Origin: Planctomycetota bacterium
GTDB lineage: Bacteria; Planctomycetota; Planctomycetia; Pirellulales; Pirellulaceae
NCBI GenBank assembly: GCA_018970165.1
Contig: JAGWWZ010000023.1
Location: 1 to 39,590 of the forward strand
DNA length: 39,590 nt
Reading direction: 5' to 3'
Below are positions 28,606-38,327 of this stretch, piece by piece. The translations under genes and the position numbers were made by a program. The notes beneath the pieces are model-generated. The model worked only from the letters and a program-made list of their open reading frames with translations, made no database searches and had not been told where the DNA came from. The first letter of the stretch is position 1; every line of letters begins with the position of its first letter.

Positions 28606-28831
28606 TTCATTTTCCTTATGAATTGCAGGGTAGGGGAGCGTAGAGCAGGGGATGTGGTTGAGGAGATCACGCCCCATCGAAACCTTTGGATGAATGTACG
28701 GGAGTCTGACGATCCGTCAATCCTTTCGGATTGTGCAGGGATGGCGTATAGTAGGGGCTGTTATGCTCCCTGTTTTTTCCGGTGCTTTTCGCTGGGCGGG
28801 GAAACTGCCTAGACACGTCCTTGGACGACTC

Positions 28832-29737
28832 ATGGTTAAAGTCAAAGATTTTCTAGGTCCCTACCGACTGGCTCGCCTTATTCGTCTTGGAAGTACCTGC
28901 CAAGTTTGGGAGGCGATCCATGACAAAGATGCCAAACGAGTGGCCCTCAAGGTTCTGCGGCCAGAACAGCGTGGGAATAAAGAAGAAATCGCTTTCCTAA
29001 AGCATGAGTACGAGGTTGCCAAGGAACTGAACCATCGTAACGTCATCAAGCTCATCGACTATGTCACCAACGCGGAAACTCCATTCATAGTCTTGGAGTT
29101 GTTCAGTGAATTGAACTTGAAGATGGCTCTGAGGCGTGGGCCTGAGCCAATCGCTTACCAACTCGCCAGCATCGTCGAACAGGCCTGTGAAGGACTCTAT
29201 TACCTTCACTCCAAAGGCTACGTTCACTGCGACATCAAGCCCGACAATCTGCTTCTCAGCCGCAATTGGGAAGTGAAATTGATCGACTTTACGATCGCTA
29301 AGAAAATCAAAACAGGGTTGGGCAAACTCTTCGGTGGCAAAACAAAAGTCGAAGGGACCCGCTCCTACATGTCTCCCGAGCAGATCCGCGGCCAGTCGCT
29401 AGACCCACGGAGCGATATCTACTCCATGGGTTGCATGCTCTATGAATTGATCGTTGGTCGTGCTCCGTACACGGGAAATACTCCCAATGAGCTTTTGAGC
29501 AAGCATCTATCGGCTGCCATTCCATCTGCGTTGGTCAACAACGACAACGTCTCCCCGGAGTTCAATAATATCCTCCGGAAAATGTTAGCAAAGAAGCCCG
29601 AGGATCGTCCGCAGACCATGTGGGACGTGCTGAAGATGATCCGCTCAACTCCGATTTTCAAAAAGCCACCCCGAATCCCCGAATCGTCTGTCTTCGATGA
29701 CTTTCAGGGTGGAGGTCGTATCGAAGCTCCTACGTAA
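28832..29737 (+). CDS. Atypical Ser/Thr protein kinase (HCD and DFT motifs)
   Basis: The 301-residue product is a single Hanks-type kinase domain without a membrane segment. The ATP Lys (K40 in VALKVL) and helix-C Glu (E59) are present, and the Asp and Asn of the catalytic loop are kept in YVHCDIKPDN (130-139). However, the HRD motif is HCD, the DFG motif is DFT (152-154), and the glycine loop is only LGSTCQVW (19-26). GTRSYMSPEQ and SDIYSMGCMLYEL are normal. It may be a slow, differently regulated or non-RD kinase rather than dead. ATG at 28832 precedes the domain by only a few residues; the frame stays open to 28694. accA starts 54 bp downstream on the same strand, so the two are probably co-transcribed. 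Confidence 0.85.
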   Translation: MVKVKDFLGPYRLARLIRLGSTCQVWEAIHDKDAKRVALKVLRPEQRGNKEEIAFLKHEYEVAKELNHRNVIKLIDYVTNAETPFIVLELFSELNLKMALRRGPEPIAYQLASIVEQACEGLYYLHSKGYVHCDIKPDNLLLSRNWEVKLIDFTIAKKIKTGLGKLFGGKTKVEGTRSYMSPEQIRGQSLDPRSDIYSMGCMLYELIVGRAPYTGNTPNELLSKHLSAAIPSALVNNDNVSPEFNNILRKMLAKKPEDRPQTMWDVLKMIRSTPIFKKPPRIPESSVFDDFQGGGRIEAPT

Positions 29738-29791
29738 TGTGCGGAGTAGTTTTCTGCACACTGTGGATTCGATTCCGCGCACAAAAGGACT

Positions 29792-30820
29792 ATGGGAGTT
29801 TCATCAGCACATATGGCTAACTCGTCTCTTGGCTTTGAATTCGAACAACCGATCTTGGATATCGAGGCCGAACTTCAGGTTCTGGAAGGTAAAGCCTCGC
29901 TAACGGAAGAAGAACAAGAACGCGTGCGGCAATTGCGTCGGCGTTGGAATGAATCAACACGCGAAATCTACGGGCGTTTGACTCCGTGGCAGATCGTTCA
30001 AGTCGCAAGGCACAAAGATCGTCCCTATACCCGCGACTATCTCAATTTCGCTTTCGACGAATTTATCGAACTCCATGGGGATAAGTTCTACGGCGATGAT
30101 CGAGCCATGCTGACCGGGTTCGCCAAGCTCGGACGGTCGAAAGTGTTGGTCGTCGGTCATCAGAAGGGACGAACGTACAAAGAGCGAGCAGCTTGCCATT
30201 TCGGATGCGCACATCCAGAGGGGTATCGCAAAGCGATGGCTAAGATGAAGCTCGCTGAGAAGTACCGTTTGCCAATCATCTGCTTCATCGATACTCCCGG
30301 CGCTTATCCCGGAGTTGGAGCCGAGGAACGGGGACAAGCGCAGGTGATCGCCGAAAGTATGTTCCTGATGAGTCAGTTGAAAACACCGATCATTTGTGTG
30401 GTGATCGGCGAGGGTGGATCGGGCGGTGCGCTCGGCATTGGTGTGGGAGACCGCATCGCAATGCTCCAGTACTCGTATTACTCAGTAATCAGTCCCGAGG
30501 GTTGTGCCGGCATTTTATGGAAGAGCCATGAGCATGCCCCCAAGGCGGCCGAAGTGCTACGCTTCACGTCATTGCATCTGCCGCAACTGGGCGTAGTCGA
30601 TGATGTGATCGAGGAACCGCTGGGGGGAGCCCATCGCGATCATCATCAAATGGCCTCGCGCGTCAAAAAGTATCTGAGCAAAACGCTTGAGCATTTGACG
30701 AAGATCCCTGTCGATGAACTCATCGCGTTGCGGTACGAGAAATTCCGACGCATGGGTTCGTATTTGGAACAGCTCGAAGATGGTTCGCTCGAAGAACGAG
30801 GCAGCATCGTCGGTAGTTGA
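29792..30820 (+). CDS. accA: Acetyl-CoA carboxylase carboxyltransferase subunit alpha
   Basis: The 342-residue protein is the alpha subunit of the carboxyltransferase that makes malonyl-CoA for fatty acid synthesis. FEQPILDIEAELQVLE, FDEFIELHGDKFYGDDRAMLTGFAKL, GCAHPEGYRKAMAKMKLAEKYRLPIICFIDTPGAYPG and GEGGSGGALGIGVGD are conserved AccA blocks, with the usual oxyanion/CoA-binding glycine strings. ATG at 29792 has AGGA very close; ATG at 29813 is an alternative. accB, accC and accD are not in the window. The upstream kinase gene lies close and on the same strand, so it could be linked to carboxylase control. Confidence 0.93.
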   Translation: MGVSSAHMANSSLGFEFEQPILDIEAELQVLEGKASLTEEEQERVRQLRRRWNESTREIYGRLTPWQIVQVARHKDRPYTRDYLNFAFDEFIELHGDKFYGDDRAMLTGFAKLGRSKVLVVGHQKGRTYKERAACHFGCAHPEGYRKAMAKMKLAEKYRLPIICFIDTPGAYPGVGAEERGQAQVIAESMFLMSQLKTPIICVVIGEGGSGGALGIGVGDRIAMLQYSYYSVISPEGCAGILWKSHEHAPKAAEVLRFTSLHLPQLGVVDDVIEEPLGGAHRDHHQMASRVKKYLSKTLEHLTKIPVDELIALRYEKFRRMGSYLEQLEDGSLEERGSIVGS

Positions 30821-30882: not shown

Positions 30883-31842
30883 CTAGCGCTTTGAATGCAA
30901 GTATTGGATGGGGTAGCCCAATCCCCGAAAGCTTGCGATCCCGCCGAGAATGATGGCCGTTTGAAGGCTTGCCTGCCAAAGAAATTGCATGGCTTGCCCG
31001 AGGGTCATTAGCGGTGTCCGGCTGGATACCACAACCACAATATAGTACAGGTCATCCAAATTTTTCACTTCCTTCCGCACGAGAAGCAAGTCGGTGAATT
31101 GGTCCACGATGGTATCGGTCGTCCAGCGAATGATGGCAGCGATGGCAATCCAAAGAATCAGGCCAGCGATGCGCCAAGATCGCCAGCGCAGCAGCCAGAA
31201 CAGAACGCTCCATTGGATGCCCAGCAGGCTTCCACCCAGGATTCCATGCAAGTACAGCGCCGTATCCCTTCCCGGGAGATTCATAAGTCGACGAGCGGTC
31301 TCTGCGCCGACCGCGCAGGCGGCAGCGATCGCGAGGATCTTTGCCAAGCTGATTTGGCTCGATCGGAGTCCTGTGGGTTCGTCGCAGACAGGCTCCGATG
31401 CGATCCCCATGCCAGTGGTCCATTGCACGAAGCGCAGCGAAAGAATCCCAAAGAAGAGATAAAGGGTCCAATGCAGCATGTTCTGCTTGAAGGCGCGGAT
31501 GGCGTTCTCCTTGGAGAGTCCCGGTAGCATCACGTTATTCCAAAGCAGGAAGGTGAGCAGGAAAAGGGCAAACGCAAGAAAGGCGAGCCGGAACCGCATG
31601 GGTTTTCCCCACCCCAAGGCCACGGTCGCAAAGCTAGCCGGCGCGAAAAGCAACATGGCGGCTGTGGTAGCAAGGATTCCGGAAGCGAAGTGGAAGGAGA
31701 GCCAACGCAGGGCAATGGCTAGGATGGCGCCTGCCACAAGGATCGCCAACGTTGCTTTCGCCGCGTGACGCTCCGCTAAATGCGTCCCAGTTTCCTGGTG
31801 ATCCGTTTGGCGAAGAGGATCGGTTTGCGTGGAGTTTTCCAT
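30883..31842 (-). CDS. Multi-pass membrane protein, unknown function
   Basis: The 319-residue product has a polar N-terminus (MENSTQTDPLRQTDHQETGT) and about eight hydrophobic segments, including AKATLAILVAGAILAIALRWL, LAFLAFALFLLTFLLW, LHWTLYLFFGILSL and IAGLILWIAIAAII. The loop with FTDLLLVRKEVKNLDD lies between late helices. No family signature was recognised. ATG at 31842 is chosen because an open frame to 31968 adds only charged, proline-rich residues with no support. It converges with accA and diverges from the giant kinase gene. The 62-bp gap to accA is almost wholly G-rich and includes a small GCAGG/CCTGC hairpin. Confidence 0.6.
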   Translation of the reverse strand: MENSTQTDPLRQTDHQETGTHLAERHAAKATLAILVAGAILAIALRWLSFHFASGILATTAAMLLFAPASFATVALGWGKPMRFRLAFLAFALFLLTFLLWNNVMLPGLSKENAIRAFKQNMLHWTLYLFFGILSLRFVQWTTGMGIASEPVCDEPTGLRSSQISLAKILAIAAACAVGAETARRLMNLPGRDTALYLHGILGGSLLGIQWSVLFWLLRWRSWRIAGLILWIAIAAIIRWTTDTIVDQFTDLLLVRKEVKNLDDLYYIVVVVSSRTPLMTLGQAMQFLWQASLQTAIILGGIASFRGLGYPIQYLHSKR

Positions 31843-32228
31843 CGAATGAGTATATCGCAAGGGTTGGCAGGTTTCGCGAGCCGGGGCAGCGTGCTTTCCA
31901 CGGCCCGGACGGCGGCCCAACGCGATGGAAAACCTGCAAATCCCAGGGATTTCTCGTTCCTCAACCAAACATAATAAACATTATCGGACGTTCGTTGTGG
32001 GATTTGCGAGGGACGCTAGCCGGAGGTTTTCCTCGTTGGAGACGCTCCTCAGCCAAGTCCGGACCGCTCGGACCGATCCGACCGATCCGACCGATCCGAC
32101 CGATCCGACCGATCACAACCGCCGTAAATTGTCCCTCGGCAACTCTCATGGTAACATCTCGCTTCCTAGCGATGGTGATGCCCAGGCAAGCTTTGATGGC
32201 GCGCCCTTTACTCGCGGAGCCGCACTCT
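31843..32228. other. Divergent intergenic region with 9-bp tandem repeats
   Basis: This 386-bp gap separates the divergent membrane-protein and giant-kinase genes and should hold both promoters. A frame reads through on the plus strand from 31752, but it lacks conserved residues and consists partly of the 9-bp repeat, so it is treated as non-coding. In-frame ATGs at 32148 and nearby cannot be fully excluded as starts of the kinase gene. No convincing -10/-35 pair was found by eye. Confidence 0.5.
32071..32114. repeat. 9-bp tandem repeat (GACCGATCC)
   Basis: Four exact copies of GACCGATCC at 32071-32106 are followed by eight matching bases of a fifth (32107-32114). A related GGACCGCTC flanks the left side. 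Because the unit is 9 bp, copy-number change would not shift a reading frame; in the forward frame it would read Arg-Pro-Ile. It lies about 115-158 bp before the chosen start of the giant kinase gene. Confidence 0.95.
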
Positions 32229-35200
32229 ATGCCCGACGATGATCCGAATCGATCCCCAGGGCCGCCACCTGGCGCTCAAGTCAATCGACCAGCTTTGAAC
32301 TCCACGCGAGTTCACAATCGCGATGCGGATGTCGAACTCAGTTTTGACGAACCGCCTGGCAGTGTCATCGGCCGCTACCAGATCCTCGAAAGATTAGGGA
32401 AAGGGGGGTTCGGGGTTGTCTTCCGCGCCGAAGACCAGCTGCTCAAGCGACAAGTCGCTATCAAAGTTCTCACTCGCTTTCGCTCGGCTGATCAAGTAGA
32501 CCTTTGGCTCGATGAGGCGCGCGTGCTGGCCAAACTCGACCATCCCGCGATTGTTCCCATCTACGATGTCGGAAAAACCGATGCTGGCGGACCGTTCATC
32601 GTCTCCAAACTGATCGAAGGGGGAACGCTCGAAGACCGACTGGAAAGCGGCGTTTGGAGCATTGATGATTCCGTGCGAGTCGCCCGGCAGCTAGCTCAGG
32701 CCTTGGAGTACCTCCACTCCCAAGGGGTCATTCATCGGGACGTAAAACCAGCGAACATCCTGACAACCCCCGATGGCAACGCGGTCTTGGCCGATTTCGG
32801 GTTGGCGATGCCTGAATCCGCGTACGGTCGAGGAGCCCATTTCGTCGGCACCCCTGCTTACATGAGCCCCGAACAGGCTCGGCATGAAGGACATCGCGTC
32901 GATGGTCGAAGCGACATCTACTCGCTCGGGGTTGTTTTCTACGAACTGCTCACCGGCAAGCGGCCTTTTCAGGTCGACGATCGGGAGCAATTGCTGGACT
33001 GCATTCGCAATGTCGAAGTCCGGCCGGTGCGACAGATTCGTTCATCGATTCCTCGTGAGCTTGAACGGATCTGCATGAAGGCGCTCGCCAAAAAAATCTC
33101 CGATCGATACAGCAGTGCACTCGACATGGCGGAGGATCTTCAGCAATGGAAATCGCTCGACTCTTCTCCCTCCCCTACCCTCCCCACCACTGGCCCCACC
33201 ACTGGCCTATTCACCCCAGTACCAGAAGGGACCGGCGATGGCGTCGTTCCGTTGACGAACTCGTCGAAATCGATTGAATTGGATGCTATTGCGGTGATCC
33301 CTCACGGATTGCGTCCCTTCGATGCCAACGACTCAGATTTTTTTCGTTATCTCGTTCCTGGGCCGCGAACTCGAGAAGGTGTCCCGGAAGCGATTCGCTT
33401 CTGGACCAACAGTATCGCAAGTCGCAGATCGGACCAGGCGTTTCAAGTCGGCGTACTGATGGGCCCCAGCGGCAGCGGCAAGTCGTCATTGATTCGCGCG
33501 GGTGTTCTTCCTCGCATCGAACGGGAGGTGGACGTTGTCTATATCGAGGCCAAGCCGGACTTGCTTGAGGAAGCGTTGTCGCGAGGAATTCGCCGTGTCT
33601 CCGATGAACCGATTGCTGATGAGCGTGACCCGGCCTGCATGCTATCTCGTGTTCGGGAATCAGGAGGATCCAAAACCAAAAAGAAATTATTGATCGTGAT
33701 CGATCAGTTCGAACAATGGTTGAATCACCATCGCCCTGGAGATCACTCTTCTCTCCGCGAAATGCTTCGGCAATGCGACGGCGTGCATGTTCAAGCTCTT
33801 CTCATCGTGCGAGATGATTTTGTACTCGGCCTATCGAGCTTTATGGATGAACTCGAAGTCTCGTTGCAGCAAAACAAAAACTTCGCTACGGTCGAAGCAT
33901 TCGGACCGGCCCACGCGAAGCAAGTCTTAGCTGCCTTCGGTCGTGCTTATGGCGCAGTCGCAGATCCAATCACGCCAACGCAACTCGCCTTTATCGAAGA
34001 TGCAATCGATGGCTTGCAGTCGCAGGGGCTGATCAATCCCGTGCAGTTGGCTCTTCTTTCGGAGATGACGAAAGGAAAAACGTGGTCCTCTGCAACACTT
34101 CGCGAACTAGGCGGGATTCGCGGAATGGGAATCGCCTTTCTGGACGAAAAGCTCGTCGGCGGTTCCGCTCATCCGGTGCTGCGAACCCACCCCGAGTCGG
34201 TTCGCTTGCTGCTCGCAGAGTTGCTTCCGCCCGATAACACGGTGATCAAGCCGCCAGCGATCCAGGAAAGCCAATTGGTTCAGATCCTTCAGTATGCGAT
34301 CCCGGCAGAGACGGTTCGCAAGATTCTGCATCTGCTCGACACCGAGCTTCGATTGATCACACCTACTAGCGGTGTGCCGACTGGCCGCAACTCTTCAACA
34401 GGCTCATCGGTTGGAGATCCCGCATACCAACTCGCTCATGACTACCTAGTCCCAACGACGCGGGAATGGCTAGCCCTGCATCAATCGGAAACACGCGCTG
34501 GCCGCGTACGCGAACAACTGCGGGAACTCGCAAACGCTTGGAATGCCAAGCCCTCGAACAAACGCCTCCCTACCTCTTGGGAATGGTTGTCGATCCGTTG
34601 GTTTACCTCGGCCGCTCATTGGACTGAACCGGAACGCCAAATGATGCGTCGAAGCGACCGCCGGGTCGCTCGCAATACACTGGGTTTTTTCCTGGGCGCG
34701 AGTTTGATTCTGCTGGTTGCTCTTTGGGCGTTGGGTTCCAATTACACGGCGTCCCTTGCTCAGCGATTGAGGCAAGCCGACTCGAGCCAAGTGGTCGAAG
34801 TACTGAAAGAACTGGATCGATTTCGATCCTCTTCGTTGCGTTTTTTCGCGAGTGAGCCTGGATGGATGCCAACCGCGGAGGATGAAGCCTCCGACCGAGC
34901 GAAATTGCAATTGGCACTCGCTGGTATCGAGGAATCACCGGAACAGGCCGAATATGTCCGTGATCATTTGCATGAATTCGAAAGTCGACATCTCGGACCG
35001 ATTCTTCTTTACTTATCGCAGAAATCGATTGGCGACGAGCGGACCTTGGTCGAATCCGTTCAGGAGGCGATCGCACATGGACAACCGCAGGCCCTGACTC
35101 TTTCTGCTCTGCTCGCACAGCGCGCGCCTCAAAACGCAGTCTGGGGAGAGATCGCATCGAGCATCGACACACTCCTGTTGAGTAAGCCAGCTACGGAGTT

Positions 35201-38200
35201 CGGATACTGGTCCGAATTATTCATGCCGGTTGCCGGCCAGCTGGTCCCGGGCCTTTTAGAGAAAGGAAAGGAATATCGTCGCGATAACGATCCGATGGCA
35301 GACACGTGTCGATTGATGATCCAGAGATTCGCCTCAAAGGATCCCGTTGCCTTGGCCGATGCAATGACATGGTCTGGGGTGGAAGGGGTCAAATCGCTGG
35401 TCGGTAACGTCACTTCCAAAGAGTCGCAGGACAAGCTCTCGCTCGAAATCCGCAACCGCATCCAACAGTTGACCCGCCCCCCCTACCCTGCTCTGGCGAG
35501 TGCGGTTTCCGGTGGTAAGGATTCCGACAAGGACGCTTCTCTCAGCAGAGATTCGAACGTACAGAGAGCGAAAGCTTTATGCGTTGCCTACGGAGGCATG
35601 GCGCATGGTCGCGGGGGTTGGATGGATCGAGTTCCTCTGGCGACGGTGGCTTCGCTCATCGATCCGATGCGGGAACTCGGCTTCAAGCCGTGGTCGATTC
35701 GTCCGAAAGCCGTGCGTTCGCCATCCGGCGAACTCACGGAGTGGGCCACCATCACTTGGGGCAAGAGCGACGAAACCTTCGAAACATTGCTCGATGTCAC
35801 TCGCGACGAGTTGAAGCAGGAGTTTGAACGAAGAAAGCAAGAAGGCTGGGTGATGATCGATTTCGCCAGTCTGCTTCGCGCGCCTGTGCCGAGCGATGGA
35901 GGAGTATACGCCGAACCGGCGGACCGTCGCTGGTGGGGTGTGTGGCGAAGGTTGCCAGAGGGAGCAAGTGAGGATCAATCGCTACTTCTCGACGCAGGAT
36001 CGTTCGCATTGGAGGAGAAAGGAGAGCGAGTGCCTCAACGCGTGCACATTCGCATTTCACCCGATGGGCGCGAACGGATTGACCTTCTATTAAGTGCGGT
36101 TACCAAGTCGATACGGGATGCACTCGAAGATCGTGCCGATGACTGTTATCAATGGAATCGTATTGCGATTGCCGCCGGGGATTTGTACCCGGGAATACCT
36201 TGTTCCGACATCCGCGTTGAAGACCTTAGCTCACTGCGAGATCGCGGGAGATTGTGGGAGGAAAAAAGCTTCTTTGCGATCGCAAGCGGAAACGAAACCC
36301 CGGTTGATACGGCGAAACGTCAAACAAGCTTGGCGGCACGGCTGTTGGAATTGGGAGAAGTCGTTTCCGCGTTGGCGGTCCTGGACCAGGTGGACATCGA
36401 GAGTCTGGACTCCCCTTCCGCATCGGTTGGCGAGCGTACGATCAACGCGTGGAAAAGAACAAGAGGCACTGCATTGGCCAAGCTCTCTCGCATCGAGGAG
36501 CTTCGCCGATGGGTTACTGAGGAGATCGATAAGTGCAGTCTTGTTTCGCACGAAAAAAATTTACTGCACTTGAGGCTAGCTCTGCTGGAGCAGGACCGGG
36601 AGCGAGCATTGTCAGCTTTTAACGCGATAAGTACTACGACCGAAACAAATCGGGAGGCCAGGGAGTCGATGTTGCGAGCTTGGGCGCTCGTCGCCTCGCA
36701 ACCGTGGGGGCGAGAATTAGTGCCGGGCGCAATGGATCAACTTTGTGTGGCTGCAGAACAGTGGTCGCGCGACCAGTCGGAGCTTTGGGCTTTCCTGTTC
36801 GGATCTGATTTTGATGGACTCCAAACCGATCCAACTTGGAGGAAATGGTGTTCGAAACACCGATTGACTTTCCGCGTATCGAGCGCGGGATGGATGCGTC
36901 TCGGGGTTGGTACCGAGGTCGACTATGGCTTAGGGGAATCCGAATTCCGACGCGCGTCTATCGATAGGTTAGAGAACGGATACTTCCCTACGGCGTTGGA
37001 ATCGACCCTCGATAGCGAAGGTAAATCGGTTTCGTGGTGCGTTTGGGAGAAGCCGGAGCCATCATTGTCGGACCGAGCGGACCGAGCACGCCAGATCGCT
37101 AATCTCGCGTTGGCCTTGGTTAACATGGGACAGCCCGACCAAATGCAGTATGGCCTTCAGGATCGGTGGGGACGGAGCGTACGTACAGCCCTGATCAGTG
37201 GTGCAACCAAAATTCTCGAACCTCGGACGATCGTGCAATCGTTCAACGAATCCCCTCCCAACATGCAGGTGGCTTACCTCGAGATCCTCGGAGGTATTCC
37301 TTTGGCATCGTTGGACCCATTGAGTCAACGTATTATCGAAGAGTCCGCGACGAGGCTCGCTGTGGACTCCGCCGATATGCGTCTCGCGAACACGGCCCGT
37401 TGGTGTTGCACGATGTGGCAGTTGCCTGTTCCCCCATTCCCCATCAATCATCCCCCAGATCCCTCTCGTAACTGGTTCACCAATAGCCTTGGTCAACAGT
37501 TCGCTATCATCGACATACCCGAACGTGTCCAATGCGGCAAACCTGGATTGAGTTGTATATGGAAGCATGTCGACCGCCGAATCGCGATTGCCACGACCGA
37601 GACCACCGGAGCTGCTTTTGAGGAGTTTTTGCAAAATCCCAGAGTAAGAGCCTGGATGGAACAGGATCGTCGCGAACGATTTGTCGAGGCAGAGGGCCCC
37701 GAGGACCCGCAATGCAAAGTTTCGTGGAATTTAGCCGTCCGATTCTGTCAATGGCTCAATGAACAGGAAAGAGTGCCAGAGGACCAATGGTGTTATCTGA
37801 ATGTTTGGGAAGCTGACTCGAACGCTTTTAGATTTGCTCCCGGCTACTTGAAACGAAAGGGTTATCGCCTCCCCACTTATGCGGAATGGAAGTACGTCTG
37901 CAGCGGCCGCACAGACGATGCATGGCACTTTGGAAGCGATTCCAAGATGATTTCGCTCTATGAGTGGACCAAGCCCCAGTCGAATAGCCGGCGGCAGAAC
38001 GCCGCAAGAAAACGCCCTAATGCGTGGGGCGTTTTCGATATCGGCGGTAGTCTTGCCGAATGGTGCGACGATCTTTCGGTGAGTCCGCTTCGTAACCGGT
38101 GGCGCACGGATAACCCCGATGAGGGTAACTCCAATCCAACCAGAGGGATTAGTAGCCGGGAAAAAATGATTCTGGCCGGTGGGCGTTTTCGATTCGAAGC

Positions 38201-38327
38201 CGAATCGGCTCGGAGCGATTCGATGGTGATCGATAGCCCCGACTACATGACGATCTCAACCGGATTTCGGGTTGCCCGCACGCTCGACGAATCAAATCCA
38301 AGTCTCCCCTCTTCTCGTCCTCGATAG
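32229..38327 (+). CDS. Giant membrane signalling protein: Ser/Thr kinase - nSTAND1 ATPase - TM - unknown region - FGE/SUMF1-like domain
   Basis: The 2032-residue protein has, in order: a Hanks kinase at about 49-307 (LGKGGFGVVF, K79, HRDVKPAN 169-176, DFGL 189-192, GTPAYMSPEQ); a linker; an nSTAND1-like ATPase at about 355-800 (HGLRPFDANDSDFF, Walker A GPSGSGKSS at 412-420, Walker B LLIVIDQFE at 488-496); a transmembrane helix at about 817-836; about 900 unrecognised residues with an EDxR/tryptophan-rich pattern; and an FGE-sulfatase/SUMF1-like domain at about 1745-2018 (VSWNLAVRFCQWL, YRLPTYAEWKYVCSG, NAWGVFDIGGSLAEWCDD, TGFRVAR). Arg-rich RRSDRRVAR before the helix predicts kinase and ATPase inside, the rest outside. 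The FGE catalytic cysteine pair is absent. The start ATG has GGAG 9 nt upstream. Confidence 0.9.
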   Translation: MPDDDPNRSPGPPPGAQVNRPALNSTRVHNRDADVELSFDEPPGSVIGRYQILERLGKGGFGVVFRAEDQLLKRQVAIKVLTRFRSADQVDLWLDEARVLAKLDHPAIVPIYDVGKTDAGGPFIVSKLIEGGTLEDRLESGVWSIDDSVRVARQLAQALEYLHSQGVIHRDVKPANILTTPDGNAVLADFGLAMPESAYGRGAHFVGTPAYMSPEQARHEGHRVDGRSDIYSLGVVFYELLTGKRPFQVDDREQLLDCIRNVEVRPVRQIRSSIPRELERICMKALAKKISDRYSSALDMAEDLQQWKSLDSSPSPTLPTTGPTTGLFTPVPEGTGDGVVPLTNSSKSIELDAIAVIPHGLRPFDANDSDFFRYLVPGPRTREGVPEAIRFWTNSIASRRSDQAFQVGVLMGPSGSGKSSLIRAGVLPRIEREVDVVYIEAKPDLLEEALSRGIRRVSDEPIADERDPACMLSRVRESGGSKTKKKLLIVIDQFEQWLNHHRPGDHSSLREMLRQCDGVHVQALLIVRDDFVLGLSSFMDELEVSLQQNKNFATVEAFGPAHAKQVLAAFGRAYGAVADPITPTQLAFIEDAIDGLQSQGLINPVQLALLSEMTKGKTWSSATLRELGGIRGMGIAFLDEKLVGGSAHPVLRTHPESVRLLLAELLPPDNTVIKPPAIQESQLVQILQYAIPAETVRKILHLLDTELRLITPTSGVPTGRNSSTGSSVGDPAYQLAHDYLVPTTREWLALHQSETRAGRVREQLRELANAWNAKPSNKRLPTSWEWLSIRWFTSAAHWTEPERQMMRRSDRRVARNTLGFFLGASLILLVALWALGSNYTASLAQRLRQADSSQVVEVLKELDRFRSSSLRFFASEPGWMPTAEDEASDRAKLQLALAGIEESPEQAEYVRDHLHEFESRHLGPILLYLSQKSIGDERTLVESVQEAIAHGQPQALTLSALLAQRAPQNAVWGEIASSIDTLLLSKPATEFGYWSELFMPVAGQLVPGLLEKGKEYRRDNDPMADTCRLMIQRFASKDPVALADAMTWSGVEGVKSLVGNVTSKESQDKLSLEIRNRIQQLTRPPYPALASAVSGGKDSDKDASLSRDSNVQRAKALCVAYGGMAHGRGGWMDRVPLATVASLIDPMRELGFKPWSIRPKAVRSPSGELTEWATITWGKSDETFETLLDVTRDELKQEFERRKQEGWVMIDFASLLRAPVPSDGGVYAEPADRRWWGVWRRLPEGASEDQSLLLDAGSFALEEKGERVPQRVHIRISPDGRERIDLLLSAVTKSIRDALEDRADDCYQWNRIAIAAGDLYPGIPCSDIRVEDLSSLRDRGRLWEEKSFFAIASGNETPVDTAKRQTSLAARLLELGEVVSALAVLDQVDIESLDSPSASVGERTINAWKRTRGTALAKLSRIEELRRWVTEEIDKCSLVSHEKNLLHLRLALLEQDRERALSAFNAISTTTETNREARESMLRAWALVASQPWGRELVPGAMDQLCVAAEQWSRDQSELWAFLFGSDFDGLQTDPTWRKWCSKHRLTFRVSSAGWMRLGVGTEVDYGLGESEFRRASIDRLENGYFPTALESTLDSEGKSVSWCVWEKPEPSLSDRADRARQIANLALALVNMGQPDQMQYGLQDRWGRSVRTALISGATKILEPRTIVQSFNESPPNMQVAYLEILGGIPLASLDPLSQRIIEESATRLAVDSADMRLANTARWCCTMWQLPVPPFPINHPPDPSRNWFTNSLGQQFAIIDIPERVQCGKPGLSCIWKHVDRRIAIATTETTGAAFEEFLQNPRVRAWMEQDRRERFVEAEGPEDPQCKVSWNLAVRFCQWLNEQERVPEDQWCYLNVWEADSNAFRFAPGYLKRKGYRLPTYAEWKYVCSGRTDDAWHFGSDSKMISLYEWTKPQSNSRRQNAARKRPNAWGVFDIGGSLAEWCDDLSVSPLRNRWRTDNPDEGNSNPTRGISSREKMILAGGRFRFEAESARSDSMVIDSPDYMTISTGFRVARTLDESNPSLPSSRPR

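Follow-up and report, generated by a model that had tools for sequence, protein, structure and literature searches.

A planctomycete protein joining a Ser/Thr kinase, an nSTAND1 NTPase, a predicted transmembrane helix and an FGE-like tip: a probable membrane-anchored receptor kinase

Introduction

Proteins that join a STAND NTPase to an FGS domain have been described as NTPase-FGS conflict systems: they can carry Ser/Thr/Tyr kinases, the NTPase may be of the nSTAND1 type, diversity-generating retroelements (DGRs) accompany them, and their FGS domains are treated as intracellular sensors of invaders (Kaur 2021, PMC8195603; related literature includes Kaur 2020, PMC7159879). Most DGR targets of the STAND type are predicted to be cytoplasmic (Dore 2024, PMC10907252). 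The same paper calls the nSTAND1 proteins of Thiohalocapsa PB-PSB1, which carry a variable region, putative antigen sensors, and names the antiviral STAND (Avs) proteins, with their TPR-type C-terminal sensor of phage proteins. In cyanobacteria, Ser/Thr kinases are joined to DGR-type C-type-lectin (CLec) domains, and ligand-released autoinhibition has been proposed for them (Vallota-Eastman 2020, PMC7517822). Here we describe P0001, a 2032-residue protein encoded on a 39,590-nucleotide contig of a Planctomycetota bacterium (JAGWWZ010000023.1, assembly GCA_018970165.1; the whole stretch is called the window), which is probably a membrane-anchored STAND receptor kinase that senses something outside the cell.

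P0001 follows the order of the NTPase-FGS conflict systems, with an N-terminal effector, a central NTPase and a C-terminal FGS-like domain, and there is a DGR in its genome. Unlike the systems of Kaur 2021, it has a conserved transmembrane helix predicted to put the tip outside and a long folded arm between the STAND module and the tip, and no effector-associated-domain partners were recognised. The Thiohalocapsa sensors share its combination of nSTAND1 with a C-terminal FGE/CLec domain, but they bear EAD8 rather than a kinase and are predicted to be cytoplasmic, and P0001 itself is not a DGR target. The cyanobacterial proteins likewise join a kinase to a DGR-type CLec domain, but they are mostly predicted to be cytosolic, and the part of that account drawn on mentions no STAND module. 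The nearest solved structure to the tip is TvpA, the DGR variable protein of Treponema denticola (PDB 2y3c); TvpA stands alone as a variable protein, whereas the P0001 tip matches no template found in its genome. Kaur 2021 already describes, in general terms, combinations of kinase, nSTAND1, FGE and DGR; the additions made here are the transmembrane form, the folded middle, the planctomycete family and a candidate partner, P0002. No description of the transmembrane family or of P0002 was found in the passages of the literature covered.

Results

P0001 is encoded on the forward strand at 32229..38327, as are all of its parts given below. Pfam profiles matched Pkinase at residues 50–296 (E = 4.8e-49), nSTAND1 at 399–775 (3.3e-21, 76.8 bits against a cut-off of 27.1) and FGE-sulfatase at 1779–2017 (1e-19), and hydropathy located one predicted transmembrane helix, so that the Hanks kinase, nSTAND1 NTPase, single helix and C-terminal FGE-like domain named in the original prediction are all present. 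The frame continues 5' as far as a TTG at 31752. Counted from the ATG, the kinase starts around residue 50, and GGAG sits just 5' of that codon, which makes 32229 a reasonable start, though not a proven one. Directly upstream of the gene, 32062–32114 holds a tandem GACCGATCC repeat of 5.9 copies.

The Hanks-type Ser/Thr kinase (32376..33116) carries AIK, HRDVKPAN and DFG, so by sequence the catalytic Lys, HRD and DFG are all intact, as they are in 64 of 77 full kinases of the family. The nSTAND1 NTPase with its winged-helix region was delimited by Pfam, alignment, model and fold search at residues 356–835 (33294..34733). Both Walker motifs are intact: Walker A, GPSGSGKS, at residues 412–419 (33462..33485), and Walker B, LLIVID followed by QFEQ, at about residues 487–496 (33687..33716). 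GPSGSGKS and DQFEQW were invariant across a 31-row STAND alignment, save for a few Walker A positions. The predicted model of the module (pLDDT 89.8) shows a P-loop ATPase followed by a winged helix, as in Apaf-1 and NLRs, and its 50 best fold matches include Apaf-1 (Z 15.4 over 298 residues) and the plant NLR ZAR1 (Z 14.9), at rmsd 7–11, together with NLRP3, NLRC4 and MalT. The expected STAND fold is thereby borne out by model and matches, although archaeal ORC/Cdc6 ATPases equal or exceed these scores; ORC2 (Z 17.2) lies above Apaf-1 and ZAR1, so a STAND protein cannot be told apart by its fold alone.

The transmembrane helix, placed by hydropathy and alignment at residues 818–836 (34680..34736), follows the STAND module and has a hydropathy of 2.28, with six Lys/Arg residues before it and two after. 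This agrees with the earlier proposal of one helix with positive charge on its N-terminal side and the kinase and ATPase inside. The examination extended to 85 of the 86 family proteins. In 79 of these, the STAND module is closely followed by a segment of hydropathy ≥ 1.4; over all 85, Lys/Arg residues are more numerous before the helix than after it in 64, equal in 15 and fewer in 6. No arm of the 85 contained a further segment of hydropathy ≥ 1.6; at a threshold of 1.5, a second hydrophobic stretch after the helix appeared in a few members (the second gene of L070/L129, L150 and L200). These data support, without proving, a cytoplasmic kinase and STAND module and an arm predicted to lie outside.

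The build of P0001 recurs in its relatives. GTDB genome contigs were scanned with the STAND part as the seed, so that only relatives with such a part were sampled, and 165 relatives were confirmed. By their titles, the best 80 of these comprise 76 planctomycetes, three entries named only 'bacterium' and one member of the Verrucomicrobiales. Their loci contain 81 STAND open reading frames, of which 61 are complete and 20 run off the locus. Kinase, STAND and FGE-like domain occur together in 55 of the 61, the predicted order of STAND module, helix and FGE-like domain being conserved in these; four of the remainder lack the FGE-like domain and two lack both it and the kinase. None of the findings named beforehand as fatal to the proposed architecture appeared, whether absence of a STAND fold, more than one transmembrane segment placing the FGE domain inside, or homologues with the segments in separate, unrelated genes. 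Because the whole build recurs in relatives, the architecture is far beyond chance.

Orthologues of P0001 were found in 7 of 60 related genomes (G000, its own, and G002, G003, G011, G015, G020 and G025), together with many paralogues. Several paralogues lie in G000 itself; the lone one-protein device that had been supposed is thus replaced by a family with several members per genome. In a tree of the STAND part, P0001 groups with seven others in a single clade (support 1.0) that does not include C86, the DGR-linked paralogue. Across the phylum, at least 11 of 392 genomes gave a match at E ≤ 1e-50, a lower bound in that four candidates per genome were scored and the known member C86 was missed. 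Viral contigs held no relatives of P0001 or P0002. In G000, L063 10778–12490 (C254) carries an interrupted kinase-STAND reading frame followed by a separate FGE-tip frame, apparently a family member that has decayed or been rearranged.

The FGE-like tip, of C-type-lectin fold, spans residues 1746–2019 (37464..38285; Pfam, phmmer and fold searches). Both catalytic FGE cysteines are missing from it, and among 45 readable family tails the first is present in none, the second in 12 and both in none. TvpA is its best PDB match by sequence (phmmer 2.4e-14, against ~1e-3 for FGEs) and by fold (Foldseek 1.5e-8; Z 27.0), followed by PvdO and CarF (24.2) and FGE (22.7); TaqVP, another DGR protein, scores Z 13.4. 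The tip therefore looks like a non-catalytic binder rather than an enzyme, in agreement with the putative binding role assigned to it from the absent cysteine pair.

The middle of the protein had been thought to match nothing recognisable, and this needs correction. AlphaFold, run on the arm with the sequences of 36 relatives, returned a confident model (pLDDT 88.1, pTM 0.85) in which helices, alpha/beta repeats, helices, another repeat and helices lead to the tip. The modelled parts are a HEAT-like helical solenoid at residues 840–1120 (34746..35588), alpha/beta repeats of the polyglycine-hydrolase type at 1124–1334 (35598..36230), a second helical stretch at 1339–1543 (36243..36857), a further alpha/beta repeat at 1548–1609 (36870..37055), with a weak BTRD1 match at 1563–1608 (E = 0.099), and a third helical stretch at 1613–1729 (37065..37415). 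The first repeats match 7tpu, a polyglycine hydrolase listed as a chitinase-modifying protein (Z 20.6 over 242 residues); the middle was folded together with the tip, which dominated the matches listed, and 7tpu is the one among them that bears on the middle. In relatives' arms, Pfam found HEAT_2 in 9 of 37, BTRD1, the polyglycine-hydrolase repeat, in 8 and FGE in 36; P0001's own arm has no HEAT_2 match. The gap between STAND module and tip ranges from 212 to 1018 residues among the 55 complete three-domain reading frames. A profile of the orthologues' middle matched 63 of 86 members and left 23 unmatched; its front and back parts are common to many members, and the long stretch between them occurs in the longest ones.

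P0001's own genome contains a DGR locus in which Avd, reverse transcriptase and template follow one another (L078 43–1600, G000:C330), with no adjacent target gene recognised and the targets on other contigs. Its Avd matched NF033474 at 106.4 bits (cut-off 80) and bAvd at 1.6e-20, and the template is rich in AAC/AAT codons. The reverse transcriptase has the motif IGNQTSQ, which we take to be a DGR-type signature; from Avd, template and motif we call it a putative DGR-type enzyme, its best NCBIfam match being a group II model, below cut-off. Two other reverse transcriptase genes are present in the genome. Apart from a chance-like match of 23 bases, the template matched only C36 and C86 in this genome. 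Over 32 codons of the C36 tip, 68/68 non-A and 11/28 A positions agree with the template (72/73 and 12/29 over 34 codons), so that C36 matches the template except at A positions, as a DGR variable protein does. A contig end cuts C36 within its STAND module, and its kinase half lies off the contig; it has the transmembrane helix, arm and FGE-like tip, and over 1075 residues it is 76.6% identical to C86, a full kinase-STAND-TM-FGE paralogue. Because only 56/68 non-A positions of C86 agree with the template, C86 looks like an old, decayed target.

In P0001, alignment places the segment equivalent to the siblings' variable region at 38178..38279, which is not itself a template match; no template match was found in C65 at E ≤ 0.1, with one template and an incomplete assembly. 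The orthologues of G002 and G003 are 92.7% identical over 686 arm residues, and of their changed codons 3 nonsynonymous and 6 synonymous fall in the tip loop and 46 and 124, respectively, elsewhere. Among the DGRs of the genus (template-like tips at ≥ 65% non-A identity), the four strongest tips agree at 69/69 (twice), 71/72 and 68/68 non-A positions. Only C36 among these four belongs to the P0001 family, so the case for DGR variation in proteins of this build comes mainly from a single genome. Two other candidate signs were set aside: paralogues of G018 and G005 differ at a variable C-terminus, but the changes are spread over the whole last 250 residues, and a template-like tip motif in 9 of 69 was not taken as evidence of DGR action.

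Downstream of P0001 by 54 bases, and convergent with it, lies the gene for P0002 (38381..39013, reverse strand), a 210-residue protein with a signal peptide recognised by eye and a conserved PCDEPPxDDIGEEE tail. Homologues of P0002 (E ≤ 1e-3) occurred in 6 of the 7 genomes bearing an orthologue of P0001 and in none of the 53 others (Fisher test, 2.4e-5 within the genus and 1.4e-7 over the 60 genomes, uncorrected for relatedness). In an accA tree, the carriers that have accA (G000, G002 and G020) are scattered; the other four gave no accA match and are unplaced. In four of the six (G000, G011, G015 and G020), a P0002-type gene lies convergent beside the receptor gene. The six homologues share 24–31% identity with P0002 and keep the acidic tail, in which C, PP, DD and GEEE are invariant. 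For P0002, Pfam gave no substantial match and the PDB none, and it falls in no known family; that it is a partner guarded or bound by P0001 is our hypothesis. In G020, a P0002 homologue lies between two kinase-STAND genes (L070 8288–19495, C34).

Clustering of homologues in defence islands, which had been suggested as a check, was not found. When the neighbours of 39 family genes and of P0001 were clustered, those that recurred all came from close orthologues or from syntenic pairs, and a conserved operon around the family was rejected. No ECF sigma partner was noticed, no search having been aimed at one. Filing as a defence system through PADLOC was also rejected: the 25 matches shown are all to kinase-bearing models and cover the kinase, save for C3a189 (56–423), and are uninformative on the system because essentially only the kinase is covered. 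A stand-alone Ser/Thr kinase gene lies at 28694–30820, directly upstream of accA, and this pair is kept in 20 of 20 fetched relatives (G020 and G021 were left out). No receptor arm or P0002 was found near the kinase-accA block in these 20, in 16 of which the sequence reaches at least ~4 kb beyond accA and in 4 less. Because it is absent beside accA in these relatives, P0001 looks accessory at this site.

Discussion

P0001 is probably a STAND receptor kinase that is anchored in the membrane and responds to something outside the cell, and we infer its topology, oligomerisation, kinase switching, ligand and output as follows. The kinase and the nSTAND1 switch would lie in the cytoplasm, with one helix crossing the membrane, and an arm of ~1190 residues, built of solenoids and repeats, would hold the FGE-like binding domain outside. 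Binding at the arm or tip would release the STAND module to form an ATP-driven oligomer, which may gather the kinases for mutual activation and phosphorylation of targets. In siblings of the same architecture the tip is varied by a DGR, as computed for one of them, C36; in the orthologue group of P0001 the tip is fixed and would recognise a set ligand, possibly the apparently secreted P0002. Any role in surveillance would rest on the architecture and the DGR-diversified sibling rather than on genomic context.

Several observations weigh against this account. Its topology is based on hydropathy and charge only. The P0001 tip is not a DGR target (31/73 non-A and 9/29 A positions agree with the template), and tip hypermutation was not seen between G002 and G003, the sole close orthologue pair. 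Of 14 template-like tips printed for the genus, four come with any STAND segment of the family and one with a kinase. G003, whose genome is 77% complete, has the orthologue and no P0002 homologue was found there; in G002 and G025 the P0002 homologue is not adjacent to the receptor gene. No defence or signalling operon was seen among the neighbours.

A sensor kinase of the envelope or of cell contact, responding to peptidoglycan, glycans, neighbours or stress with no role against phages or invaders, is a possible but rather unlikely alternative. It would suit an extracytoplasmic arm without defence neighbours, a dedicated secreted protein in P0002 and a fixed tip, whose loop appears under ordinary constraint in G002 and G003. 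Plain envelope sensing would nevertheless be an unusual task for a protein with a STAND module and a sibling varied by a DGR, and the patchy presence and variable genomic site look accessory rather than housekeeping. The helix might instead be buried or peripheral and the arm sense invaders inside the cell, which would make P0001 a cytoplasmic sensor of the NTPase-FGS conflict type, in keeping with the intracellular role given to FGS domains by Kaur 2021 (PMC8195603) and the cytoplasmic prediction for most STAND-type DGR targets in Dore 2024 (PMC10907252). We judge this improbable in view of the strong hydropathy of the P0001 segment, the same-place helix in nearly all members examined and the positive charge on its N-terminal side. 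That the tip is a catalytic FGE, or another FGE-fold enzyme, which acts outside the membrane and is regulated through the kinase seems very improbable: a Pfam FGE-sulfatase match and the presence of PvdO and EgtB among the fold matches point that way, but the cysteine pair is missing from all 45 readable tails and TvpA leads by both sequence and fold.

Returning to the membrane-anchored receptor kinase, we put forward as a speculative and unlikely proposal that these proteins form a family of bacterial immune receptors spanning the membrane. Their internal kinase would be driven by an NLR-type switch. The outside tip would be rewritten by a DGR in the living population in proteins like C36; in proteins like P0001 it would stay fixed and act together with a dedicated secreted protein, P0002, that it guards or binds. 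If the proposal is true, single proteins of a surface receptor system would unite a receptor kinase, an NLR and targeted hypermutation.

NLR-type receptors are usually placed inside the cell and receptor kinases at its surface. P0002, which tracks the receptor across genomes, offers a first concrete ligand candidate. A conserved family with both receptor types in one chain, and with a sensor fold that a retroelement varies in a sibling, would equip planctomycetes with a repertoire of surface sensors and would be a simple system in which to assay ligand, switch and kinase output together.

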